From Thermodesulfobacteriota bacterium (GTDB lineage: Bacteria > Desulfobacterota_D > UBA1144 > Nemesobacterales > CSP1-2): 47,333 nt of DNA. The stretch's first letter is position 1; the number at the start of each line of letters is the position of its first letter. Both the position numbers and the translations under genes were made by a program. Positions 504-47,113 of the stretch are shown piece after piece. The stretch lies in assembly GCA_035559815.1 (NCBI GenBank), contig DATMAT010000079.1:1-47333 (forward strand), given 5' to 3'. The notes beneath the pieces were generated by a model, which did no database searches, was not told the DNA's origin, and saw only the letters and a list, made by a program, of their open reading frames with translations.

Positions 504-655
504 TTAAGAGTTAAAAACTCTAGTTATTTAGTCAGGTATATCCACATTCTCTTCACCAATATTTGATCCACATCGGAGACCGTGATGGGATTCACCAGGT
601 AGAATAAATCCTTTAGATAAATCATTCATCAAATAGTTCTAAAGGGGTATCGTCG

Positions 656-2926
656 ATGGTAAATACGGTCGATTATTTACTGATTGGAGGGGGGCTGGCC
701 AGTGCAACTGCTGCGGAGACATTGAGGAAAGAGGGGGCAGGGGGAAGAATCGTTATCGTATCGGAAGAAAACTATCCACCCTATCATCGTCCTCCGCTCT
801 CCAAGCGTTTTCTCCTCGGCAAACAGAAAAAAGAGAGGATCGTAGTTCTCAAAGAAGGTTATTATAGAGAAAACGATATCGAGCTGGTACTCGGCACTAA
901 AGCCCTCTCGGTTGACCCTAGGGAAAGAATAGTCAGGACCGATAATTCTGGAGAGCTTCGTTATAAAAAACTACTCATAGCTACTGGCTGTAGAATAAGC
1001 AAACTATCCGTTCCTGGTTCGAGCTTACCCGGCATATATTATCTTAGGACGTTGGATGACGCCGAGGCATTGAAACAAGCTATTGAAATAGCGAGCAGGG
1101 TTGTGGTCATCGGGGGAAGTTTCATCGGAATGGAGCTTGCGTCGACCTTTAGGCAAAAAGGTAAAGAGGTGACAATTATCACCCAGGAAGAAATCATCTT
1201 CGATAAGCTGTCCTCCCCGGAGGTCTCTGAGTTCTTCAGGGACTACTATAAAGCACACGGCGTGAGCGTAATTTCCGGGGAAACGGTGAAAGAATTTATA
1301 GGAAAAAATAGTGTAAATGGTGTTATTACAAACACCGGAAAGGAATTTCCCTGTGACCTGGTTGCAGTCGGGATAGGGGTTGTTCCCAACACTGATTTTC
1401 TACTGGGGAGCGGAATAAAGCTGGATGATGGTGTAGTTGTGGATGAATACATGCAAACAAATAACCCGGATGTCTTTGCTGCGGGGGATGTAGCCAATTT
1501 TTTCGACCGGGTATTTGGGAGACGGCGCCGAGTCGAACACTGGGATAATGCTATGAAGCAGGGACAAGTTGCCGCTAGGAATATGATGGGGCACAAACAG
1601 CCGTATCGTACCGTTTCCTATTTCTTTTCGGATGTGTTTGATCTTACTTTCAATTTTCTCGGAGACACGGCGGATACAGGTGAAAGGGTGGTGAGAGGTT
1701 CTATAAAGGAGAAGTCATTCTCCGTTCTTTATCTGAAGGATGGAGTCTTGAAGGCGGCATTTTTGTTGCGAAGACCGCCCGACGAGGATAAATCGGCGGG
1801 CTCGCTCATACAAAACCGGGTTAATCTGGAGAAAGTAAAAGGTAAATTATCGGAAGTTAGTTTCAAGCTCCACAGAATACCGACTCAGACGGTGCTCATT
1901 CTTCAAGGGGGCGGCGCCCTGGGGGCATTCCAATGCGGTGTGGTTAAAGCGATGGAGGAGAAACAAATCTACCCGGATATCGTGGCCGGTGTCTCCATAG
2001 GCGCATTTAACGGGGCAATAATAGCCGCGAATCCAAGGAATGCGGCAAATGCTCTAGAGGCGTTCTGGGATGAGATTACTGTGAATATTCCCAACGTCCC
2101 AAAGGAAGGAAATCGTCGGCTAGTCTCATCTTGGTATTCGCTTATTTTTGGCTCACCCAAGTTTTTCCGCCCCAGGTGGTTGATGCCCGTTTTTAATCCT
2201 AATGAATTGCCCATAAACTGGACCAGTTTTTACGATCCCTCTCCGGTGAGGGAGCTTCTTCTTAAGTACGTTGATTTTGACAAATTAAGAGATAGCCCGA
2301 CTCGGCTGATCATAGGCGCCGTGGACGTGGAGACATCAGAGCTTGTGGCTTTCGACAGTTACGTTGACGAGATTACACCGGAGCATATTATGGCCAGCGG
2401 CAGTTTGCCCCCAGGATTTCCGTGGACGACGATTGATGGAAAACACTACTGGGACGGCGCCCTTGTAAGCAATACGCCCCTTGATTTGGTCACCGAGCTA
2501 TGCGGTTTAACCCAGAAAAAGGTGTATGTGGTTAATCTCTATCCGACAAGGAAGGCCCTCCCCCAAAACTTGCCGGAGGTGCTTGCCAGGAGGGATGAAA
2601 TCTTTTTCTCGGAGAAAATAAGGAGAGACATACATACCAAGGAGCTTATCGAAAACTACAGAAAATTGGTCGAGGAGATAATGAGCTACATCGAGCCGGG
2701 GGTGGCCCAGCAGATAATGCAGAGGCCGCTCTATATTCGTACGATGGGAGAGCTTACCCCGATCTCCATAACTAGGATCGTTCATGAAGGAGAGGAGGGT
2801 GAACCCTCATCGAGGGATTATGATTTCTCCTGGAGGACAGCCCGTCAGCACATGGAGGAGGGTTATAGCGTGGCTAAGAAGGTGCTGAAGAGGGAGGAAA
2901 AAAAGAAAATGGAGAAATCTTACTGA
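656..2926 (+). CDS. FAD-dependent pyridine nucleotide oxidoreductase fused to a patatin-like phospholipase
   Basis: This is one continuous 756-residue frame holding two unrelated enzyme domains. Residues 6-375 are a ferredoxin/rubredoxin reductase-type flavoprotein. It has an N-terminal FAD-binding GGGLASATAA (11-20), an NAD(P)-binding VVVIGGSFIGMELA (149-162), the second FAD motif AAGDVA (275-280) and an HWD (295-297) typical of the ferredoxin-reductase branch. Residues 411-750 are a DUF3734-type patatin: oxyanion loop GGGALGAF (418-425), nucleophile elbow GVSIG with Ser447, and catalytic Asp600 in WDGAL. All catalytic residues of both halves are present, so both should be active. About 35 residues link them. 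AAAGGGG lies 7 bases before the ATG. The patatin half should cleave acyl esters of lipids; the reductase half passes NAD(P)H electrons to an unknown acceptor. There is no signal peptide, so it is probably cytoplasmic. Confidence 0.9.
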   Translation: MVNTVDYLLIGGGLASATAAETLRKEGAGGRIVIVSEENYPPYHRPPLSKRFLLGKQKKERIVVLKEGYYRENDIELVLGTKALSVDPRERIVRTDNSGELRYKKLLIATGCRISKLSVPGSSLPGIYYLRTLDDAEALKQAIEIASRVVVIGGSFIGMELASTFRQKGKEVTIITQEEIIFDKLSSPEVSEFFRDYYKAHGVSVISGETVKEFIGKNSVNGVITNTGKEFPCDLVAVGIGVVPNTDFLLGSGIKLDDGVVVDEYMQTNNPDVFAAGDVANFFDRVFGRRRRVEHWDNAMKQGQVAARNMMGHKQPYRTVSYFFSDVFDLTFNFLGDTADTGERVVRGSIKEKSFSVLYLKDGVLKAAFLLRRPPDEDKSAGSLIQNRVNLEKVKGKLSEVSFKLHRIPTQTVLILQGGGALGAFQCGVVKAMEEKQIYPDIVAGVSIGAFNGAIIAANPRNAANALEAFWDEITVNIPNVPKEGNRRLVSSWYSLIFGSPKFFRPRWLMPVFNPNELPINWTSFYDPSPVRELLLKYVDFDKLRDSPTRLIIGAVDVETSELVAFDSYVDEITPEHIMASGSLPPGFPWTTIDGKHYWDGALVSNTPLDLVTELCGLTQKKVYVVNLYPTRKALPQNLPEVLARRDEIFFSEKIRRDIHTKELIENYRKLVEEIMSYIEPGVAQQIMQRPLYIRTMGELTPISITRIVHEGEEGEPSSRDYDFSWRTARQHMEEGYSVAKKVLKREEKKKMEKSY

Positions 2927-3194: not shown

Positions 3195-4469
3195 TCATTC
3201 TAAATAATCTCCCACCGCCTTGGAGAAATACTCCACAAATTCTTTGGGTTTCATATTTGCAGTGTGTGCGAGTTTTCTTAACTGTTTGGGATTTTCAAAA
3301 TCCTCTCTTTTGAGCTTTATCATGTACTTCACCGGAACCTCGTAGGCCTCGGTTTTTATGTCGACATAGCGTATTCTCGTTGACCCGGTTTCCGGGTTTA
3401 TAAGCTCGGTGAAGAATATAGGAACCATTCTGCCGGTCTGTATGCTGATCATAGCTCCGGTCCCGCCCTCGAACAAAAATTTAACCGCACAATACCCCAG
3501 GTCCCGGGCGTATTTGGCATCGAATGGGATTGGCGGAGCCGACCTGAGCTCATACCCTATGCTCTTGTCTACTATCCTGGCTTTTATCCCCTTTTTTGAA
3601 AGACGTTTCTTAGTTTCATCTTTGAGGAGCCTTCCGAGGTCAACCTCGGAGAGTCTTATTCGTCCGTGTTCGTCTCTGTCTAAATCGTCTAACTTTTCCA
3701 GTTCTTCCTGGTGCAATTTCTCTATGAGTCCTTCGGCCAGGATCGCCACCCCGTCTTCCCTACCCATGCTTAATCTTTTTATAATGGCTCCCTCAAGAAC
3801 GGAGACCATCCTGTCCAGCGGGACTTTTCCCCTGCCGAACTCCTCCGGGATCATGGTGAGCGTTGCTCCAGATGCCTTTCCGATCCCCAGTGCCAGATGG
3901 CCGGTTTTCCTTCCCATGGTGGTGACGAAATACCATCTGTTCGCGGTTTTTGCATCCTCCATAAGATATTGGACAGTTATGGTTCCTAGATGCCGTGCTG
4001 TTTCGAATCCAAAAGTGGGAATATAGTCGGGTAGGGGCAGGTCGTTATCGATGGTCTTTGGTACGTGAGCTACTTTAATTTGTCTCTTTGCTTCTTCTTC
4101 TACGCGGTGAGCGAGAAACATAGTGCCGTCTCCGCCTATGGTTATAAGGTATCTTACCCCAAGCTCATTCAGGACCCTTATTGTATTTCTCATCCTCTCC
4201 GGACTGGTCAAGGGGCTTTCTCTGGATATCCCTATCAAGGAACCGCCGGTGAGATGTATACGGGAAGTGTCTTCTATGGTTAGTTTACGGATGTGGGTTT
4301 TATCTCCCTGGGCGATCCACCTGAACCCATCCAAGATTCCTATCACCGTTTTTCCCCGATTAATTGCCTCTATGGTAGCGGCGCTGATAACCCCGTTTAT
4401 TCCCGGAGCAGGGCCGCCGCCAACTAGGATAGCCATCACGTCTGAAGAATTTTTGCGAGGAGAAGCCAT
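3195..4469 (-). CDS. pfkA: 6-phosphofructokinase (ATP-type signature with a PPi-type lysine)
   Basis: This enzyme phosphorylates fructose 6-phosphate to fructose 1,6-bisphosphate in glycolysis. In the 426-residue frame counted from the TTG at 4475, GGDGT (114-118) is the phosphate-donor loop and PKTIDND (139-145) carries catalytic Asp143. GFETA, MGRKTGHLALGIG and PEEF are further substrate-site blocks of the family. Gly117 in GGDGT is the ATP-type residue, where PPi enzymes have Asp. Lys140 is the residue found in PPi enzymes and in trypanosome or plant-type ATP enzymes, where Escherichia coli PfkA has Gly. I therefore expect ATP use in the long, non-classical group. The ATG at 4469 is preferred because GGAG lies 7 bases upstream; the TTG at 4475 is only 1 base from it. 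Length 424 residues. Confidence 0.9.
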   Translation of the reverse strand: MASPRKNSSDVMAILVGGGPAPGINGVISAATIEAINRGKTVIGILDGFRWIAQGDKTHIRKLTIEDTSRIHLTGGSLIGISRESPLTSPERMRNTIRVLNELGVRYLITIGGDGTMFLAHRVEEEAKRQIKVAHVPKTIDNDLPLPDYIPTFGFETARHLGTITVQYLMEDAKTANRWYFVTTMGRKTGHLALGIGKASGATLTMIPEEFGRGKVPLDRMVSVLEGAIIKRLSMGREDGVAILAEGLIEKLHQEELEKLDDLDRDEHGRIRLSEVDLGRLLKDETKKRLSKKGIKARIVDKSIGYELRSAPPIPFDAKYARDLGYCAVKFLFEGGTGAMISIQTGRMVPIFFTELINPETGSTRIRYVDIKTEAYEVPVKYMIKLKREDFENPKQLRKLAHTANMKPKEFVEYFSKAVGDYLE

Positions 4470-4513
4470 ATTCAATCTCCGTCAATTAAGATATATCGAA
4501 GTACACCGCTGTA

Positions 4514-4899: not shown

Positions 4900-5598
4900 C
4901 TAATTATGGTACCTGCCGGACCATCCGGTGCGATAATATCCCTTCTTGATGAAGAACCTGGTTAGGACGAGCCCGACAACAAATCCCCCTACATGGGCCC
5001 AGAAGGCGACACCGCCGGTATCCCTCGATGCAGCGAGCGTTGCCACGCCACTAAAAAATTGCATTATAAACCAGATGAGGAGGAATACCGCAGCCGGAAT
5101 CTCCACGATGTGTAAGAAAAAGAATATCGGCACCAGTGTAACAATCCTGGATTTTGGGAATAATAATATGTAAGCTCCCAATACTCCGGAGATTGCGCCG
5201 CTTGCTCCCACCATTGGGATTTCGGAACGCACATTGGTGATGATTTGGGTAAAAGCCGCTCCCAACCCGCAAATCAAATAAAAGAGGAGATACTTAAAAT
5301 GACCCATCCGATCCTCGACGTTGTCCCCGAATATGTAGAGGAATAGCATGTTTCCTATCAGGTGAAACCATCCCCCGTGAAGGAACATAGAAGTAAAAAA
5401 CGGATAAAAGCGATCAACAAAGCCTGTGTTCGAGTAGAATACTACTTTCGCCGGAATAAGACCATATTCGTGTATAAAGTGCTCCAACTCACCGCCCAGT
5501 GAGACCTCGTAGAGAAAAATAAGCGAGTTTAATACGATGAAGATAATGTTAATAAACGGGAAGCTGCTTGAAGGGATTTTATCGCGAAGAGGAATCAT
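4900..5598 (-). CDS. Rhomboid-family intramembrane serine protease
   Basis: A 232-residue polytopic membrane protein. The opening MIPLRD.IPS is the standard N-terminus of bacterial rhomboids. HGGWFHLIGNMLFLYIFGDNVED (from residue 74) is the loop 1/TM2 signature with His79 and Asn83. GASGAISG holds nucleophile Ser133, and AHVGGF holds catalytic His202. Together they form the Ser-His dyad that cuts transmembrane helices inside the bilayer. Six or seven membrane segments are visible. There is no Shine-Dalgarno sequence before the ATG, and the promoter at 5609-5637 would start transcription only a few bases upstream, so the mRNA may be leaderless. The substrate is unknown. It is divergently oriented to the KdsC-like gene. 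Confidence 0.93.
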   Translation of the reverse strand: MIPLRDKIPSSSFPFINIIFIVLNSLIFLYEVSLGGELEHFIHEYGLIPAKVVFYSNTGFVDRFYPFFTSMFLHGGWFHLIGNMLFLYIFGDNVEDRMGHFKYLLFYLICGLGAAFTQIITNVRSEIPMVGASGAISGVLGAYILLFPKSRIVTLVPIFFFLHIVEIPAAVFLLIWFIMQFFSGVATLAASRDTGGVAFWAHVGGFVVGLVLTRFFIKKGYYRTGWSGRYHN

Positions 5599-6466: not shown

Positions 6467-7691
6467 TTGGCTATGCAGTGACCACCGTGATAAACTAACC
6501 GTTGTGGACACAGCAAGCCTTACCAATTCCATCAAGGCAAAAGCGTTAGAGGTCGGGTTTGACCTGGTAGGGATATCCCCTGTCGGGCCGTTTCCGGAAA
6601 ATCAGTTCTATAAAGAGTGGCTGGCTAGAGGGTTTGCCGGTGAGATGAAGTACATGGGGAGGGAGCCGGAAAAAAGAGAAAATATTCTGAACGTGCTTCC
6701 CGAGGCCAGGTCGGTTATATCCTGTGGCCTCAATTACAATACCGATTATCCCTACTCGACCAGACAGGATGATAAAAGGCGAGGATGGATTTCCCGCTAC
6801 GCCTGGGGAGATGATTACCACGAGGTTTTAAAGTCAAAGTTATCGCTGGTGCTGGATTTTATTGAAGAGGTTGTTCCTCAAGAGGTTAAGTCCCGCTTGT
6901 ATGTGGATACCGGGCCGGTGCTGGATAGGGTTTACGGCAAATATTCCGGCATAGGCTGGTACGGGAAAAATACCTGTTTAATAAATCAAGAAATCGGCTC
7001 TTGGATTTTTATCGGAGAGATAATAACAAACCTCGAGCTTGATTATGATAGTCCAGCCCTCGACAGATGCGGCACCTGCACGAGGTGTATTGACGCATGT
7101 CCCACCGGTGCGCTTTTGGAGCCTTATGTCCTAGATTCAAGGCTGTGTATTTCCTACCTCACTATTGAGCAGCGCGGTGGAATTCCCATAGAACTCAGGG
7201 AGAAGGTAGGTAACAACATATACGGCTGTGATATCTGCCAGGATGTCTGCCCCTGGAATAGAAAGGCCGAGGTAGCAAACGACCCATCGTTCCAGCCCAG
7301 GGATGGTCTATACAACCCCGATTTATCTACATTTTCAAATCTGTCTGAGGAGAAGTTCAGGTGGATTTTTAAGGGCAGTGCGATAAAGAGGGCAAAGAGG
7401 AGCGGATTCCTCCGGAACGTCACGGTGGCTATGGGCAATTCTGGGGATAAGGATTTTATCCCATATGTTAAAGAATATTTAAAGAATGATGACCCACTTG
7501 TTAGAGCACATGCAGCATGGGCTTTGTGGAGGCTTGATGGTGAGGGTTCTTACAGAGCCCTGTCAGACCAGCTTGATGCGGAAACCGATCCTATAGTTCG
7601 AGAAGAGATAGTTGCTATCTTAGGCGGATATGGGGATACAGAAGCCAGAATTCAGAATTCAGAAGTTAGTAAGGCTTCTTCTGACTTCTGA
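6438..7691 (+). CDS. queG: Epoxyqueuosine reductase QueG
   Basis: It catalyses the last step of queuosine synthesis, reducing epoxyqueuosine in tRNA with cobalamin and two 4Fe-4S clusters. The evidence is the KALEVGFDLVGI opening, YVDTGPVLDRVYG and GIGWYGKNTC, then ferredoxin-type CGTCTRCIDACPTGAL and the second set CDICQDVCPWN. A HEAT-like C-terminal part follows (VRAHAAWALWRL). Conserved homology begins only around base 6510. Start candidates are TTG 6423 (1 base from GGAGG, too close), ATG 6438 and GTG 6504 (395 residues, nearest the family length but without a ribosome site). The last 17 or so codons run into a tandem TTCAGAAGTTAG/CTTCTGACTTCTGA repeat, so the native C-terminus seems to have been replaced by repeat sequence. 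Confidence 0.93.
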   Translation: MPITRPGSLNWLCSDHRDKLTVVDTASLTNSIKAKALEVGFDLVGISPVGPFPENQFYKEWLARGFAGEMKYMGREPEKRENILNVLPEARSVISCGLNYNTDYPYSTRQDDKRRGWISRYAWGDDYHEVLKSKLSLVLDFIEEVVPQEVKSRLYVDTGPVLDRVYGKYSGIGWYGKNTCLINQEIGSWIFIGEIITNLELDYDSPALDRCGTCTRCIDACPTGALLEPYVLDSRLCISYLTIEQRGGIPIELREKVGNNIYGCDICQDVCPWNRKAEVANDPSFQPRDGLYNPDLSTFSNLSEEKFRWIFKGSAIKRAKRSGFLRNVTVAMGNSGDKDFIPYVKEYLKNDDPLVRAHAAWALWRLDGEGSYRALSDQLDAETDPIVREEIVAILGGYGDTEARIQNSEVSKASSDF

Positions 7692-7732
7692 CTCCCGACT
7701 TCTGCCTTCCTCTTTTTTATGCGAGAGGTTTT

Positions 7733-8155
7733 ATGTCTGACCGGTTTGAAGATGTAGCCAAGGTTAATGAAACCTTTTACGTTGCCCTGGAAAGCGGGGA
7801 CCTGGCGCTGATGGAGAAGGTGTGGTTAAAGGACTCAAGGGCAAAATGCGTCCATCCAGGCTGGCCCATGCTTTTAGGATGGGAAGCAATAAGACAGAGC
7901 TGGAAGAATATCTTTGACTCCGGAGGCCCGACCAAGATTCAGATTTCAAATATCAATGTGGAAATATCCGAAGACATAGCGTGGATTACCTGCATCGAGC
8001 ATATAACCCATATCGTGAAGCAGAAGGTTCACAAAAGCCTGGCCCAGGCGACCAATATATACGAGCGGCGTGGCTCCCGCTGGTTCATGGTTCACCATCA
8101 CGCCTCGCCCATACCGACCATGGGCGGAGACATGGCCGAGGATAAGCTGCAGTGA
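7733..8155 (+). CDS. SnoaL-like/NTF2-fold protein
   Basis: A 140-residue protein with the cone-shaped NTF2/SnoaL fold pattern: N-terminal helix FYVALESGDLALMEKVW, then CVHPGWPMLLGWEAIRQSW and the beta strands IQISNINVEISEDIAWITCIEHI and GSRWFMVHHHASP. This matches the SnoaL_3 group often annotated as ketosteroid isomerase-related or DUF4440. The histidine run VHHHASP near the end is common there. No substrate can be named. It lies 41 bases after queG on the same strand. Confidence 0.8.
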   Translation: MSDRFEDVAKVNETFYVALESGDLALMEKVWLKDSRAKCVHPGWPMLLGWEAIRQSWKNIFDSGGPTKIQISNINVEISEDIAWITCIEHITHIVKQKVHKSLAQATNIYERRGSRWFMVHHHASPIPTMGGDMAEDKLQ

Positions 8156-8306
8156 CTTTTTAGAAGTAACACACATGTTTGTCTTGTACAATGAAGGCTG
8201 TCTTTACCAGAGACAAAGTCTCGAAGCAATCGAGGTAAGTAGCAACATTAGATATTAGGGACAGAGTCCCTAATAAGTTGCATAGATAAACGGCAATTCA
8301 CAGCCT

Positions 8307-8369
8307 GTCATTCTGAACCGAAGGTGAAGAATCTAAATATTATTAGATGCTTCACTTCGTTCGGCATGA
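8307..8369. repeat. GTCATTCTGAAC...GTTCGGCATGAC inverted-terminus repeat
   Basis: The ends form a 12-bp imperfect inverted pair around GAAGAATCTAAATATTATTAGATGCTTC, itself partly self-complementary. It is another member of the small GTCAT/ATGAC family. The gene-free stretch 8156-9344 holds this unit, a fragment around 8540-8575 (ATCGCTTCG...GCGATGAC), the inverted GTCATCCCCGA repeat at 8793-8865, the broken antitoxin-like gene at 8947-9141 and a possible 41-codon frame at 9239. Confidence 0.65.
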
Positions 8370-8792
8370 CAACCATGACGGCCATATTCTCCGCAGAGTT
8401 CAAGCTGAATTTCAGCAAAGGATTGGGATGACAAACTAGTTTATCCTCATTGGAAAGGGTCGAAATTATTTGGATAGGGTATTCAGATTTAACTTGTGGA
8501 GACATTGTCCATCTGATCAAAATCAGACTTTCGCACCTTGAAATATGAGATCGCTTCGCTAACGCTTGCGATGACAACATCGGGTTTTAAATCTTTTCCT
8601 ACAGTTTCCTGTCTACAATACCAATTGCTAGAGTCTTTAGCGGATAATTTGTTTAATCCAACTCTCATAGGCTTTCTGGGAAGTTTCGGGTTGTTCATAG
8701 GTGTACTTAACGCTGTATTATAAAGTTATCATTCCCGTACGTTCCTCGATTATACATTCGATTACAGGCTTTAGCGGAAATCCACCGATTAA

Positions 8793-8865
8793 TCATTCCC
8801 ACGGAAGTGGGGATCCAGTCTTTCAAAAAATGGATCCCCGATTAATACGTTCGGGGATGACATGC
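8793..8865. repeat. GTCATCCCCGA...GGGAATGAC repeat, inverted copy
   Basis: Read on the minus strand it begins GCATGTCATCCCCGAACG, continues ATTAATCGGGGATCCATTTTTTGAAA and ends CCACTTCCGTGGGAATGA. This aligns with the copies at 3021, 12141 and 16231 but in opposite orientation. Confidence 0.7.
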
Positions 8866-8946
8866 GGAGAGGATCCCCGATAGCCTCCTGGTTTAATCGG
8901 GAAAAGGACAGGTATGACTAAATGAATGATGCACTTTGTGAGTCGC

Positions 8947-9141
8947 TTAGCTTATAAGCTTCAATACATCTCGGTGTGGAATTACTTCAGATGGTTTTCT
9001 TAACCTTTGCTCTAATCGTTTTCTAAATGCCTCTTTCAGTTGAAGACCTCAATCCGGATCCCCAATAATTTCAAGAAGTTTTTGCTCTATAAAATTCTCT
9101 AGGTCATCAATCGACATATCTTTTATTTTTACTTTAGCCAT
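8947..9141 (-). pseudogene. Small antitoxin-like gene interrupted by an in-frame TGA
   Basis: From ATG at 9141 the frame reads MAKVKIKDMSIDDLENFI, continues through LLEIIGDPD and meets TGA (9049-9051). The same frame then continues LQLKEAFRKRLEQRLRK, PSEVIPHRDVLKLIS and stops at 8947-8949. The GDPD.GL.L...F..RL pattern followed by .IP...V is that of small acidic antitoxin-like proteins found beside RelE/ParE-type toxins. Because similarity continues after the stop without a frame change, this is probably a 64-residue gene broken by one nonsense change. No toxin partner is visible on either side. Confidence 0.55.
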
Positions 9142-9238
9142 TATCGCTCACGTTTTTCGATAGGTTTAGTTAAGAAACTTATCTTTATTTTATCTATGAT
9201 TTCTACTTCTTTAAGAATAAAGAGTTGTAGGAGGAAAA

Positions 9239-9364
9239 ATGAGAAAAAAGACTCGATCACATCTCTTGTCCCACACCCTTTTCCTGAGTACTATTACCCA
9301 CTCAATTTTTGTGACATTTCAGGGTAAAGAACGGAGGAATTACCATGGGTTCGTGGAGAGATAA
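9239..9364 (+). CDS. Possible 41-residue small protein ahead of doxX
   Basis: An excellent GGAGG lies 5 bases before ATG 9239. The frame gives a basic, then hydrophobic 41-residue peptide (MRKKTRSHLLSHTLFLSTI at the start) that ends 20 bases inside the doxX gene. No family is recognised. Translational coupling to doxX is possible but unproven. Confidence 0.3.
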   Translation: MRKKTRSHLLSHTLFLSTITHSIFVTFQGKERRNYHGFVER

Positions 9365-9767
9365 GAGTCTGAACATCGGACTTCTCTGGCTTAGGATGCT
9401 AATGGGTCTGGGCATTTCCGTGTTTCACGGCTACGGGAAAATATTCAACGGGCGAATGGAGCAATTTACGGAAGGCGTGGCAAAATTGGGGTTTCCCACG
9501 CCGGAGTTCTTTGCCTGGTCAGCGGCATTGTCGGAATTCCTGGGCGGGATACTGTTGGTTTTGGGGTTGGGCACGAGATTGGCCGCATTCTTCGTCTTCA
9601 TCACCATGAGCGTGGCTGCCTTTATCCGACATGCGCCCGACCCTTTTGACGTGAAGGAAACGGCTTTACTATACTGGACGATTTCGTTGGCGATTGTGCT
9701 CTTGGGCCCCGGTCTTTTTTCATTGGATAATCTGATCACTAAATACCTGAGGAAGAAGATTAGTTAA
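9345..9767 (+). CDS. DoxX-family integral membrane protein
   Basis: 140 residues with four predicted membrane helices. LLWLRMLMGLGISVFHGYGKI opens the DoxX domain. Next come FFAWSAALSEFLGGILLVLGLGTRLAAFFVFITMSVA and the last helix ISLAIVLLGPGLFSLD. The FHGYGK, SE..GG.LL.LGL.TR and LLGPG.FSLD blocks are family hallmarks. Members serve as membrane subunits of redox or thiosulfate-related complexes or remain uncharacterised, so the exact role is open. GGAGG lies 7 bases before the ATG. The dedA gene follows after 15 bases, suggesting an operon. Confidence 0.88.
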   Translation: MGSWRDKSLNIGLLWLRMLMGLGISVFHGYGKIFNGRMEQFTEGVAKLGFPTPEFFAWSAALSEFLGGILLVLGLGTRLAAFFVFITMSVAAFIRHAPDPFDVKETALLYWTISLAIVLLGPGLFSLDNLITKYLRKKIS

Positions 9768-9782
9768 AATGTTTTCCACTCC

Positions 9783-10367
9783 ATGGAATTAGTCGTTCAC
9801 TGGATTACACAACATGGCTATCTGGGCATATTTTCCTTGCTCGCCATCGGTGTTTTCGGAATTCCGGTGCCGGATGAAGGGGTGCTCGGATTTTCCGGTT
9901 ACCTCGTTTACAAGAACAAATTAAATATCGTTCCTGCTTTCATCTCCGCTTATCTGGGCAGTGTATTCGGCATCACTATGACTTATGGATTGGGACGGAT
10001 TTTCGGTAAGGGCTTGGTCGCCAAATACGGTAGTACTTTTCACGTAACCGAAGAGAAATTAAATCGCATTCACCGCTGGTTTAATCGTATGGGGAGATGG
10101 GTACTGTTGTTCGGTTATTTCATCCCGGGCATGAGACAAATAGCGGCTTTCACTGCCGGGACGTCCAAACTGGGATTTCCGGTGTTTTCACTATTTACTT
10201 ACACCGGAGCCTTTCTCTGGTCTCTGGCTTATATAGCGTCGGGGTATTACTTAGGAGAGGAATGGATTAGGGTATCGACAAACATACGTCATGTCCTTGT
10301 GGCCTGTTTGGCGGTACTGGTCTTATCACTGGGGTGCTATTTATTAGTCAAACGAAATGTAGCTTGA
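9783..10367 (+). CDS. DedA-family (VTT domain) membrane protein
   Basis: 194 residues. The re-entrant loop FGIPVPDEG (25-33) and the GYFIPGMRQ motif (111-119), with its essential Arg118, are diagnostic of the DedA/SNARE-associated family. These proteins are now linked to flipping of undecaprenyl phosphate or phosphatidylethanolamine across the inner membrane. Four hydrophobic segments are visible, the last near 170-190. No separate Shine-Dalgarno sequence is obvious, so translation may couple to doxX. Confidence 0.9.
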   Translation: MELVVHWITQHGYLGIFSLLAIGVFGIPVPDEGVLGFSGYLVYKNKLNIVPAFISAYLGSVFGITMTYGLGRIFGKGLVAKYGSTFHVTEEKLNRIHRWFNRMGRWVLLFGYFIPGMRQIAAFTAGTSKLGFPVFSLFTYTGAFLWSLAYIASGYYLGEEWIRVSTNIRHVLVACLAVLVLSLGCYLLVKRNVA

Positions 10368-10513
10368 TTAGAGATTTCTTTTATATAAGACCGGAAGATA
10401 ATACTGAGAATAAACCTCTCTTCTATGCCAGGTATCTAAGGAATCTAGGCTGATATTACTGTTCACGCAAATGTACTAACTGAAGATTGGGGTAAGAAAT
10501 AACTTCTCTGGGC

Positions 10514-18439: not shown

Positions 18440-20344
18440 TTATATCTCGACCTCTGTACCGATTTCGATTACCCTATTAGGAGGGATGCCGAAATGGACA
18501 AGTGGTGTCTGTGCATTCCTAGACATTAGGGCAAATAACTTCTTTCGCCAGCTAGACATCTTTTTTGATTTCCCCAATATTAAGGTCTCGCGACCAAGGA
18601 AGAAAGTCGTTTCCATAAGATTAAATTCTATTTTGTAATCCACTTCCGCCAGGCGCAGAATCGCTGGTACATTGGCATTCTCCATAAAACCGATATGTGC
18701 AATAATTCTAATGACATTGGGTGTGATCTCTTTAATTTCAAGTTTCTTGGATCGAGGGATACGCGGCACCTCCTCGGTGACTATTGTCAGTAGGATTACA
18801 CGCTCGTGAATGACTTTATTATGCTTTATATTGTGGAGCAAGGCTTGAGGTATACCTCTGGGATTGCTAACCATGAATACCGCGGTTCCCGGCACTCGGC
18901 TTACTGAATTACTGCTATCCAAATCAGCCAGAAGGATTTCAATTGGCACTTCCTCCTTTTGGAACTGCTCTCTAAGGATAGCCCGTCCTTGATTCCATGT
19001 AGTCATTAAGAAGTAGATAACAGCCCCAACTAGAAGCGGAAACCATGCCCCCTGCCCGAGCTTGAGCATGTTCGCACCGAAAAAGGCAAGATCAATAACG
19101 AGAAAGAACGTTGTGACGGACGCGGCTGTCAAAATGCTCCAGTCCAGGTGTGTTCGTGCATATACAAACATAAGAATGGCAGTGACAACCATCAATGCCG
19201 ATATAGCTACTCCGTAGGCACCGGCCAGGTTTTCCGAGGATCGGAAGCCCAGAACCAGGCCGACAGTACCAACCAAAAGTATCCAGTTCATCGAGGGGGT
19301 GTATACCTGCCCAATCTCTTCCGGGGAGGTGTGGCGGACTTCGAGGCGAGGCAAGTAACCGAGTTGTATGGCTTGACGGGTAAGAGAGAATGCCCCGGAA
19401 ATTACAGCCTGAGATGCAATGATAGTTGCTGCTGTTGCTAGCCCAATGAGCGGGTATAATCCCCAAGATGGCGCAAGCAGATAGAAGGGGTTTCTTATGG
19501 TCTCTGGCTTGCTGATGAGTAATGCCCCCTGCCCAAAGTAATTGAGAAGCAGTGCAGGTAGTACCAATACAAACCAGGCCAACCGGATCGGTTGCTTTCC
19601 AAAATGTCCTATATCGGCATAAAGTGCCTCACCTCCGGTTACCACGAGGAAAACGGCACCAAGAACGACAAAGCCCCTGTAGCTATTGTTAGCAAAGAAT
19701 TCCACAGCATGAAGTGGATTTATAGCTCCAAGCACCTCTGGAACCTTGATAATTTCCAGTGTTCCAAGAATTGCCAGAGTAATAAACCACAGGAGCGTAA
19801 TAGGCCCAAAAACCTTGCCTACTCCGCCCGTCCCTCGTTTCTGGAAAAGGAACAAGGCAACTAATATTCCGACTGTGATAGGGATTACATAAGGGTCAAA
19901 GATTGATGTTCCGACCTTGAGCCCTTCGATTGCGCTGAGTACCGAGATAGCAGGTGTTAGCATTCCATCTCCATAGAAGAGGGCGGCTCCAAAGAGGCCG
20001 ATAACGAGTAATACACTACCCTGCGCAGGTTTGACCTTGCGCTGGGGAACAACCAGGGTAAGCAGTGCCAGAATACCGCCTTCTCCTTCATTATCCGCTC
20101 GCAGCACAAAAGCTAAATACTTAATAGAGATGACGATTATTAGTGACCAGAAAATTAGTGAAAGCACACCAAGGACGTTTTCATCGGTAACCCTGAGATT
20201 ATGTTGTGAGGAGAAGCACTCTCGAAATGCATAAAGCGGACTCGTCCCAATATCTCCAAAAACAACACCAAGCGCGAGAAGAGCAAGAGAGTAGGTTCGA
20301 GGTTTATGCGGCTCTGATGGAGCTGAGTTTTTGATGACGTTCAT
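18440..20344 (-). CDS. kup: Kup-family potassium uptake transporter
   Basis: A 634-residue K+/H+ symporter of the KUP/HAK/KT family. GVVFGDIGTSPLYAF (26-40) is the signature of the first helix, with Asp31. YGDGMLTPAISVLSAIEGL, GTGGVGKVFGPITLLWF and LTRQAIQLGYLPRLEVRHTS are further family blocks. About 12 membrane helices are followed by a roughly 170-residue cytoplasmic C-terminal domain (from about 460), the usual layout. A cyclic-di-AMP riboswitch lies upstream in the 5' leader on the same strand. High c-di-AMP should therefore lower potassium uptake, as known for other ydaO-controlled kup genes. Confidence 0.95.
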   Translation of the reverse strand: MNVIKNSAPSEPHKPRTYSLALLALGVVFGDIGTSPLYAFRECFSSQHNLRVTDENVLGVLSLIFWSLIIVISIKYLAFVLRADNEGEGGILALLTLVVPQRKVKPAQGSVLLVIGLFGAALFYGDGMLTPAISVLSAIEGLKVGTSIFDPYVIPITVGILVALFLFQKRGTGGVGKVFGPITLLWFITLAILGTLEIIKVPEVLGAINPLHAVEFFANNSYRGFVVLGAVFLVVTGGEALYADIGHFGKQPIRLAWFVLVLPALLLNYFGQGALLISKPETIRNPFYLLAPSWGLYPLIGLATAATIIASQAVISGAFSLTRQAIQLGYLPRLEVRHTSPEEIGQVYTPSMNWILLVGTVGLVLGFRSSENLAGAYGVAISALMVVTAILMFVYARTHLDWSILTAASVTTFFLVIDLAFFGANMLKLGQGAWFPLLVGAVIYFLMTTWNQGRAILREQFQKEEVPIEILLADLDSSNSVSRVPGTAVFMVSNPRGIPQALLHNIKHNKVIHERVILLTIVTEEVPRIPRSKKLEIKEITPNVIRIIAHIGFMENANVPAILRLAEVDYKIEFNLMETTFFLGRETLILGKSKKMSSWRKKLFALMSRNAQTPLVHFGIPPNRVIEIGTEVEI

Positions 20345-20492: not shown

Positions 20493-20561
20493 CTAGTAGG
20501 AAAAGAAATCTCTTAGGGTTGTGGTATTGATAATTAAGAGGTCAAAGAGGCGGTATTTCAT
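20493..20561 (-). CDS. Possible 22-codon leader ORF after the riboswitch
   Basis: ATG 20561 follows AGGAGGAAC, whose purines form the 3' edge of the riboswitch aptamer. The frame reads MKYRLFDLLIINTTTLRDFF, then SY and stop. The 3-base spacing is short. If translated, aptamer folding could hide the ribosome site. I see no convincing intrinsic terminator between here and kup, so the expression platform is undefined. Confidence 0.2.
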   Translation of the reverse strand: MKYRLFDLLIINTTTLRDFFSY

Positions 20562-20564
20562 GTT

Positions 20565-20692
20565 CCTCCTGACGCCTACGAGGTTAGCTGACGGGCTCGG
20601 GTCGAAAGGATAACCCTACATCCCCCTGGATGACTCGCCCCAAAATCTCGGGTCCCCCGCTTTCTCAATTTGTGAGAAATTCGGCGCTCTCA
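20565..20692 (-). promoter_or_regulatory. ydaO-yuaA riboswitch (cyclic di-AMP sensor)
   Basis: On the minus strand the conserved landmarks appear in order. These are GAGCGCCGAATTT, AAAGCGGGGGACCC, TTTTGGGGCGAGTC, AGGGTTATCC, CGAGCCCGTCAGCTAACC and TCGTAGGCGTC. They match the Bacillus subtilis ydaO aptamer nearly block for block, including the pseudo-symmetric GGGGGACC and GTCAGCTAACCTCG cores. The opening GCGCC can pair with the closing GGCGT as P1. kup begins about 220 bases downstream, the classic target: c-di-AMP binding normally turns K+ importer expression off. Most described examples are in Gram-positives and cyanobacteria, though other phyla carry it. Confidence 0.88.
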
Positions 20693-20883
20693 CATTTTAG
20701 GTTGTTTAGTTTAATACGTCGAACTTTCTTGTCAATTTAATCGCATTGATTCATCAGAAATCTATCTGAGTAAGAACCGTTGCCTCATTTAAGAATTTCT
20801 TTAAGCCGTTTTGACTGAAACTGTTGAAGCGCGGAAATCACCCTTCGACACAAGCTCAGAGCCCGTCCTGAGTGCGACGAAGG

Positions 20884-20911: not shown

Positions 20912-21225
20912 CTCAATATGATGCTGTTCGTCCTGAGCCAGGTCCCCCAGTTTAACCGGGGGAAGAGCGAACACCGCCTATTTAACCCATCCTTCGATTA
21001 GACTCAGGATGAGCGGATTCTCGTCCGCTAGGTATGAGGAATCTAAATAGATTGCTTAGTTGTTTAACTCCTCGCAGTGACAAGACATGGGGTGTCATTG
21101 CGAGACAATCTCGTATTTTGGGCAAGTTTGCTAACCTTTAAAACTTAAGCCTTCAAAACCATTGATACTTCATCGAAAAGCGGATAGTGTATGTGACCAA
21201 ATCAAATCGGAAGAGGTTAACCGGG

Positions 21226-25079: not shown

Positions 25080-25185
25080 GTCATTGCGAGCACATTCGCT
25101 CAGCTCAATGTATACTTCGCTGAGCAATCTGTTTAGATTACTCACAAGCTCCCTCACATTCGTTCGGGACAGGGTTCGGAATGAC
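25080..25185. repeat. 106-bp GTCATTGCGAG...TCGGAATGAC element
   Basis: The left end is the exact family terminus GTCATTGCGAG and the right end its diverged partner. The interior ATCTGTTTAGATTACTCAC and ATTCGTTCGGGACAGGG match other copies. It lies in the 458-base gene-free gap 25031-25488, which otherwise holds the two repeats listed next. Confidence 0.7.
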
Positions 25186-28484: not shown

Positions 28485-28642
28485 GTCATTGCGAGGACCC
28501 TGAGCAAAGCGAAGGGGACGAAGCAATCTGTTGAGATTCCTCACGTTCGTTCGGAATGACACTTCGTGTCAGATTGTTTCGCTGGGATCTGAGGTAGCGA
28601 TCAAGAGGGAGGAACTCAGGGAACCGCATCGCTCGCAATGAC
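28485..28642. repeat. GTCATTGCGAG...CTCGCAATGAC element, 158 bp
   Basis: Its outer ends form the same perfect 11-bp inverted pair as at 287-376. An internal TTCGTTCGGAATGAC (to 28560) suggests one element nested in or fused to another. The gene-free stretch 28316-28798 holds this, the adjoining tail repeat and a CCTTCGTCAGGCTCAGGACAGG fragment at 28432. Confidence 0.75.
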
Positions 28643-46642: not shown

Positions 46643-46717
46643 GCTGGCGTAGCTCAGTGGTAGAGCAGCTGACTTGTAATCAGCAGGTCGGGGGTTCAAC
46701 TCCCTTCGCCAGCTCCA
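46643..46717 (+). tRNA. tRNA-Thr (anticodon TGT)
   Basis: Acceptor arms GCTGGCG and CGCCAGC pair fully. The anticodon stem CTGAC/ATCAG encloses a TTGTAA-type loop with TGT. GGTTCAACTCC is the T arm. CCA is encoded at 46715-46717. Confidence 0.95.
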
Positions 46718-46779
46718 CCGCCAAGATGCAGGATATTGCAAATAATATTGAAGACGTATCGTGCATCTTTTCTGACCAG

Positions 46780-46862
46780 GGGGAGTTGGCCGAGTGGACA
46801 ATGGCACCAGACTGTAAATCTGGCGGGGCAACCCTACGGAGGTTCGAATCCTCCACTCCCCA
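46780..46862 (+). tRNA. tRNA-Tyr (anticodon GTA)
   Basis: Acceptor arms GGGGAGT and ACTCCCC pair. CCAGA/TCTGG encloses CTGTAAA with GTA. The long variable arm (GCGGGGCAACCCTACGG region) marks a type II tRNA. CCA is not encoded. Confidence 0.95.
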
Positions 46863-46953
46863 AAACAATTTTGGATTTCGGATTGGGGATTTCGGAGGAA
46901 AAGGTAGTCTTTTAAAATCTGCAATCCGCAATCTGCAATCCGCTATTGAAACC

Positions 46954-47027
46954 GCGGGAGTAGCTCAGTTGGCTAGAGCGTCAGCCTTCCAAGCTGAGGG
47001 TCGCGGGTTCGAGTCCCGTCTCCCGCT
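46954..47027 (+). tRNA. tRNA-Gly (anticodon TCC)
   Basis: Acceptor arms GCGGGAG and CTCCCGC pair. TCAGC/GCTGA encloses CTTCCAA with TCC. GGGTTCGAGTCCC is the T arm. CCA is not encoded. The spacer before it holds a short CAATCCGCAATCTGCAATCCGC tandem repeat. Confidence 0.95.
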
Positions 47028-47040
47028 CTGCTGGTGTATG

Positions 47041-47113
47041 GCCCACGTAGCTCAGACGGTAGAGCACATCCTTGGTAAGGATGTGGTCGGCGGTTCGAGT
47101 CCGCCCGTGGGCT
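47041..47113 (+). tRNA. tRNA-Thr (anticodon GGT)
   Basis: Acceptor arms GCCCACG and CGTGGGC pair. CATCC/GGATG encloses TTGGTAA with GGT. GGTTCGAGTCC is the T arm. CCA is not encoded. tuf begins 46 bases later. Confidence 0.95.

Follow-up and report, generated by a model that had tools for sequence, protein, structure and literature searches.

The window, i.e., the complete stretch of 47,333 nucleotides analysed here, encodes a single polypeptide in which a flavoprotein of ferredoxin-reductase fold is joined in frame to a patatin-type hydrolase. The same architecture is conserved at full length in distant relatives, and most of these carry it next to genes of 3-hydroxybutyrate (3HB), acetoacetate or PHA metabolism. 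We consider it rather likely that the fusion protein is a cytoplasmic enzyme that mobilises PHB or oligomers of 3HB and carries its own NAD(P)H flavoprotein; within this reading, we infer the substrate, the direction of flow and the role of the reductase half.

An intact reductase-patatin gene

The 756-codon reading frame opens with an ATG behind a ribosome-binding-like site and has zero internal stops (Table 1); a promoter scan of the plus strand 5' of the gene gave no signal. Four Pfam matches, all above their curated cut-offs, divide the protein into Pyr_redox_2 (residues 6-303, 237 bits) and Reductase_C (residues 322-392, 36 bits) in the first half and Patatin (118 bits, cut-off 27.7) and DUF3734 (68 bits, cut-off 22) in the second. 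The initial annotation had described a flavoprotein and a DUF3734-type patatin in one polypeptide, and both parts of this description hold, with a single intact frame here and the same full-length frame in 19 other places. AlphaFold models the whole fusion protein with a mean pLDDT of 86.8 and a pTM of 0.76 and the patatin half alone with a pTM of 0.85, the latter model matching patatin-fold lipases in the PDB.

Table 1. Features of the window, with positions counted from its first nucleotide.
Feature	Position	Strand	Basis or remark
TCATTGCGAGC-type repeat, six copies	288-298, 365-375, 21095-21105, 25081-25091, 28486-28496, 28631-28641		
Ribosome-binding-like site AAAGGGG	641-647	+	Read directly; 8 nt 5' of the ATG
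Fusion gene, reductase + linker + patatin/DUF3734	656-2926	+	Pfam; 19 full-length relatives
Reductase half, residues 1-395	656-1840	+	Pfam and fold match to ferredoxin reductases
First FAD motif GGGLAS, residues 11-16	686-703	+	Alignment
NAD(P) Rossmann motif GGSFIG, residues 153-158	1112-1129	+	Alignment; Ser instead of second Gly
Second FAD motif AAGD, residues 275-278	1478-1489	+	Invariant in alignment
EHWDNA, residues 294-299	1535-1552	+	Invariant in 14/14 aligned fusions
Inter-domain linker, approx. residues 396-410	1841-1885	+	Alignment; length constant
Patatin domain, residues 414-611	1895-2488	+	Pfam; model matches PDB patatin-fold lipases
Oxyanion-hole loop GGGALG, residues 418-423	1907-1924	+	Alignment
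Predicted catalytic Ser447 in GVSIG	1994-1996	+	Invariant in 14/14 aligned fusions
Predicted catalytic Asp600 in DGA	2453-2455	+	Asp invariant in 14/14 aligned fusions
DUF3734 C-terminal domain, residues 649-753	2600-2914	+	Pfam
Phosphofructokinase neighbour	3195-4475	-	Context
Rhomboid protease neighbour	4900-5598	-	Context
Large membrane protein, Kup-like	18440-20344	-	3' of the riboswitch
c-di-AMP riboswitch	20558-20696	-	Rfam RF00379, 98.9 bits
Four-tRNA cluster	46643-47113		Rfam RF00005

Motifs and linker were compared in an alignment of 14 fusions, while the trees of the patatin halves include all 20. None of the 14 departs from the oxyanion GGG, Ser447 of the GxSxG box or Asp600, i.e., the serine and aspartate that had initially been read as intact are so throughout the alignment; the motif around Asp600 is DGA in the window and DGG in 12 of the 14 sequences. 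At the sequence level, the patatin half matches the patatin-like protein PlpD (E 3.5e-11).

On the reductase side, both FAD motifs are intact as initially read: GGGLAS is present in the window, and so are the FAD contacts ATG (residues 109-111) and AAGD, which are invariant in the aligned fusions. The claim of an equally intact NAD(P) motif stands in part. The motif is present, but it departs from the textbook GxGxxG in that a serine replaces the second glycine (GGSFIG) in 11 of the 14 aligned fusions including the window, and the glutamate that marks NADH use after the second strand is a threonine in the window and variable in the others. A Rieske-reductase encoded by a relative (L015) has the same serine, in the motif variant GASFIGME, which makes the serine look like a subfamily feature rather than obvious decay.

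In fold, the reductase half resembles ferredoxin reductases (TM 0.88-0.94 by target length, at 28-34% identity), with the NAD(P)H ferredoxin reductase 3fg2 as the closest solved structure at 34% identity in the structural alignment. In Pdr/BphA4-type ferredoxin reductases, the tryptophans of the PWFWSDQ stretch lie close to the flavin; W-F-W is kept in 3fg2 and 3lxd, whereas the window has SYFFSDV. No ferredoxin or rubredoxin gene recurs among the annotated or HMM-named neighbours of the fusion loci, and the ferredoxin encoded on the Sphingopyxis and Tardibacter plasmids is part of a dioxygenase cluster that contains a reductase of its own. Given the altered NAD(P) motif and Y-F-F in place of W-F-W, we do not file the reductase half as a ferredoxin reductase and describe it as a predicted flavoprotein of this fold with an uncertain preference for NADH or NADPH. 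The original assignment to the ferredoxin/rubredoxin-reductase type is thus borne out for domains and fold but not for the NAD motif or the W-F-W stretch.

Spread and origin of the fusion

Including the window, we found 20 fusions, of which the 19 full-length relatives show 46-69% identity. Three are encoded in genomes of the window's order (G005, G006, a Candidatus Dadabacteria genome, and G019), and others in Methylococcaceae, Xanthobacteraceae, Propionivibrio and two Massilia genomes. Five are plasmid-borne (Xanthobacter autotrophicus Py2, Variovorax, Sphingopyxis indica, Tardibacter and Cupriavidus), and six more carrier genomes came from samples around the Massilia and Methylococcaceae carriers. 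Carriers therefore span Dadabacteria-like genomes and Alpha-, Beta- and Gammaproteobacteria. The fusion is rare, with 4 carriers among ca. 57 genomes of the window's class; three samples of Pseudomonadota yielded 3 carriers in 399 genomes, 1 in 397 and 5 in 369, each count including the carrier genome used as sample centre.

The linker is the least conserved part of the protein (44-50% identity to the nearest relatives) and is ungapped in all 14 aligned fusions. The initial annotation had raised the question of whether related genomes share the fusion and its linker, which is what we found in G005, G006 and G019, with a linker length that is constant across the alignment. It had also named an assembly join, or relatives in which the two domains occur only apart, as grounds against a true fusion; instead, there are about 20 fusions in a single group. 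We therefore discarded an assembly artefact or chance join, and give a misassembly or sequencing error that merged two adjacent genes a negligible chance, despite the position of the fusion gene ca. 655 bases from a contig end bearing a dispersed repeat, since 19 independent sequences, finished plasmids among them, have the identical architecture and the aligned linkers are free of gaps.

In the tree of the patatin halves, all 20 fusions lie on one side of a single branch (support 93/98, recovered in 96% of bootstrap trees). For the reductase halves, two changes are required because a second copy in G019, the only one in the fusion group that lacks a patatin, sits inside this group. This patatin-less reductase (L059, positions 7493-8722) is 57% identical to the reductase half of the window and is encoded ca. 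7 kb from the G019 fusion. Selection was assessed between G005 and G006, synonymous sites against the window being saturated or nearly saturated, and dN/dS is ca. 0.14 for the reductase half (dN 0.195, dS 1.38) and ca. 0.07 for the patatin half (dN 0.145, dS 2.03), i.e., both are under purifying selection. From the grouping of the patatin halves and the constraint on both parts, the simplest reading would be one old fusion event with patchy horizontal spread and one later split in G019.

Gene neighbourhoods of fusions and stand-alone patatins

A 3HB, acetoacetate or PHA gene is adjacent to the fusion in 12 of the 19 relatives, and the remaining seven have no adjacent pathway gene. The 3HB dehydrogenase gene hbdH lies at most two genes away in nine relatives (L059, L060, L039, L069, L070 and L102-L105), seven of which also have the acetoacetate decarboxylase gene adc; an acetoacetyl-CoA synthetase adjoins the fusion in one (L061), a divergent phaZ in two (L071 and L100), and a phasin is encoded nearby in two (L069 and L070). 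The fusion of G019 is followed after a gap of 12 bases by adc and then hbdH, that of G006 has hbdH 3' of it, and that of G005 (L061) is preceded by the acetoacetyl-CoA synthetase. On the plasmids of Sphingopyxis and Tardibacter, a phasin gene (on the opposite strand) precedes adc, fusion and hbdH, while four loci of the Methylococcaceae-centred sample show adc, hbdH and fusion. The Methylococcaceae contig has the end of an hbdH directly upstream, and the PHA depolymerase gene is divergent from the fusion on the Cupriavidus plasmid and in G350. At L105 (G1032), the adc beside the fusion is matched in short pieces only (positions 9704-10216), and a frameshift or an error in sequencing may have disrupted it.

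Roughly estimated from a few hbdH genes among ca. 4,000 genes, the chance of such a neighbour is well under 1% per locus. Because the loci are related, they amount to fewer than 12 independent cases; at least five neighbour arrangements in distant branches agree. Taken as genomic context, these recurring neighbours point to PHB or ketone-body mobilisation.

Stand-alone DUF3734-type patatins share this setting. On 12 plasmids picked without regard to context, they have hbdH as an operon neighbour in eight cases, in seven of these together with adc, and one further plasmid has a phasin beside the patatin. With the same type of operon for both, the fusion occupies the position that the stand-alone patatin has elsewhere. 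Patatin-adc-hbdH operons (L073-L078, L110 and L113) are present on many plasmids with the patatin annotated as a phospholipase, a label that probably misleads about its role. We found no experimental work on these stand-alone proteins in the open-access literature.

No 3HB, acetoacetate or PHA gene lies beside the fusion in the window, where the contig begins 655 bases upstream; the neighbouring phosphofructokinase and rhomboid protease genes are found in the same order beside the fusion of G005. The acetoacetyl-CoA synthetase of the window's genome is encoded on contig 8, in the block that adjoins the fusion in G005, and is 81% identical to the fusion's neighbour there. Since the two blocks are separate in the window's genome, the adjacency in G005 may be a local rearrangement. 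No dehydrogenase of this genome exceeds the curated HBDH cut-off of 307 (best 222), and acetoacetate decarboxylase has a weak match of 49 bits. Support for the pathway reading thus comes from the relatives rather than from the window locus.

The window's genome encodes a class III PhaC (437 bits, cut-off 365) with PhaR/PhaE-like partners, from which its host is predicted to make PHA; at this locus (L082, positions 7821-10384), three small genes, two of them PhaR/PhaE-like, lie upstream of the synthase gene. PhaC_N is matched in six of the eight other fusion-bearing genomes, the exceptions being G005 and the small assembly G062.

Elsewhere in the window, a c-di-AMP riboswitch lies 5' of a gene for a large membrane protein that looks like a Kup-type potassium transporter, and four tRNA genes are clustered at the contig end. 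The dispersed TCATTGCGAGC-type repeat is present six times, where chance would give 0.67 copies; some copies form facing pairs, and one pair is located near the contig end upstream of the fusion.

Proposed role, alternatives and known systems

PHB is a store of carbon and reducing power. In the reading that we favour, the patatin/DUF3734 half would hydrolyse 3HB esters through a Ser447-Asp600 dyad in the manner of PhaZh1, the released 3HB would be converted by 3HB dehydrogenase to acetoacetate with formation of NADH, and either acetoacetate decarboxylase or acetoacetyl-CoA synthetase would then use the acetoacetate. NAD(P)H would be oxidised by the fused FAD reductase, which would hand electrons of the NADH made by the pathway to some acceptor or, alternatively, signal the state of NAD(P)H to the hydrolase. 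In reviews and a follow-up paper, PhaZh1 of Haloferax mediterranei is described as a patatin-like enzyme that degrades PHA to 3HB in vitro and whose gene adjoins bdhA (PMC11205408, PMC4823750, PMC7137286). Deletion of phaZh1 (PMC4823750) or of slr0060, the gene of another PHB-linked patatin (PMC7203880), left PHB mobilisation in vivo unchanged.

It is also conceivable, if fairly unlikely, that the patatin half is the working enzyme and the reductase a conserved but independent passenger, kept at a fixed ratio and without coupling. Stand-alone DUF3734 patatins manage without a reductase in the same operon, the close reductase copy of G019 suggests that this half can act alone, and the short linker is less conserved than the rest of the protein; on the other hand, the halves share broadly the same tree, have remained joined in about 20 lineages, and show strong constraint on the residues of the reductase.

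A version with tighter coupling draws on AIF-like flavoproteins, which are thought to sense the NAD(P)H/NAD(P)+ state. By analogy, the flavoprotein half could sense this ratio and turn the activity of the patatin half on and off, limiting PHB breakdown to times when the cell is in need of reductant. This redox gate is tentative and on balance doubtful, and we give it real weight because no ferredoxin neighbour recurs and the nicotinamide motif is altered.

The initial annotation had suggested deacylation of oxidised lipid, i.e., a phospholipase that strips oxidised acyl chains while the reductase half feeds a lipid-repair partner with electrons. Phospholipases are common among patatin-fold enzymes, PlpD and the phospholipases CapV/CapE are among the nearest solved structures, a phospholipase A gene is located ca. 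1.4 kb upstream of the fusion on the Sphingopyxis plasmid, and a ferritin-like gene follows hbdH in G006. However, the loci that we read have no recurring neighbour of the lipid-repair, peroxidase or methionine-sulfoxide-reductase type, and hbdH, adc, acetoacetyl-CoA synthetase, phasin and PhaZ genes recur instead, with 3HB/acetoacetate enzymes also beside stand-alone DUF3734 patatins, which renders this proposal improbable. An anti-phage effector with a CBASS-type phospholipase, as might be read from the best fold matches of the patatin-half model (CapV and CapE) and weak PADLOC matches to phospholipase effectors (33 bits), was rejected as highly improbable because the similarity is at the level of the shared patatin fold, neither a nucleotide cyclase nor any other defence gene was noted beside the fusion loci read, and a metabolic operon recurs instead.

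No paper on a reductase-patatin fusion or on the role of DUF3734 was found in the open-access literature, which omits most subscription journals, and within this literature the earlier statement that no described enzyme joins both activities holds. The sequence family itself is not new since databases already contain such proteins, labelled only "FAD-dependent oxidoreductase"; what would be new is their reading as a patatin-type storage-polyester hydrolase with a flavoprotein reductase attached. For DUF3734 patatins, which are annotated as phospholipases, the recurring patatin-adc-hbdH operon offers a testable role in the breakdown of PHB and 3HB. As an enzyme of PHB mobilisation, the fusion would directly and physically connect a flavin redox centre with the breakdown of a reductant store, and the matching of this breakdown to the cellular redox state could be tested with one protein.

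Among known systems, NAD(P)H ferredoxin reductases of the Pdr/BphA4/CYP199A2 type share fold and domain order with the reductase half, but the fusion differs from them in the serine of its NAD motif, the missing NADH-marking glutamate, Y-F-F for W-F-W and the absence of a recurring ferredoxin gene among its annotated or HMM-named neighbours. The Rieske-reductase flavoprotein has the GASFIGME variant in common with the fusion but is partnered with a Rieske domain instead of a hydrolase, and AIF-like flavoproteins match the fold of the reductase half with a TM of ca. 0.83. For the hydrolase, Slr0060 of Synechocystis is a patatin-domain protein found with PHB granules and encoded in an operon with a PHB-related protein, though no reductase is reported and its knock-out has no clear PHB phenotype (PMC7203880). 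Stand-alone patatins from Rhizobium, Mesorhizobium, Microvirga, Thioclava, Shinella and Paraburkholderia share the combination of patatin and DUF3734 (33-38% identity) and, in adc-hbdH operons, also the operon type, but lack the reductase half and form a group apart from the fusion patatins in the tree. Finally, a search of plasmid pHME505 yielded a protein (L109) that is presumptively PhaZh1 based on its GTSGG box, an upstream SDR gene and the replicon; it shows 25% identity to the fusion over 322 amino acids, a weak match at a level common to other patatins. PhaZh1 is a single-domain protein without a DUF3734 match above threshold or a fused reductase, but it resembles the patatin of the fusion in its patatin fold with a serine box and in a PHA-making host (PMC11205408), as is predicted for the window's genome; its gene lies beside that of a 3HB dehydrogenase, a position that the fusion has in nine of the 19 relatives.
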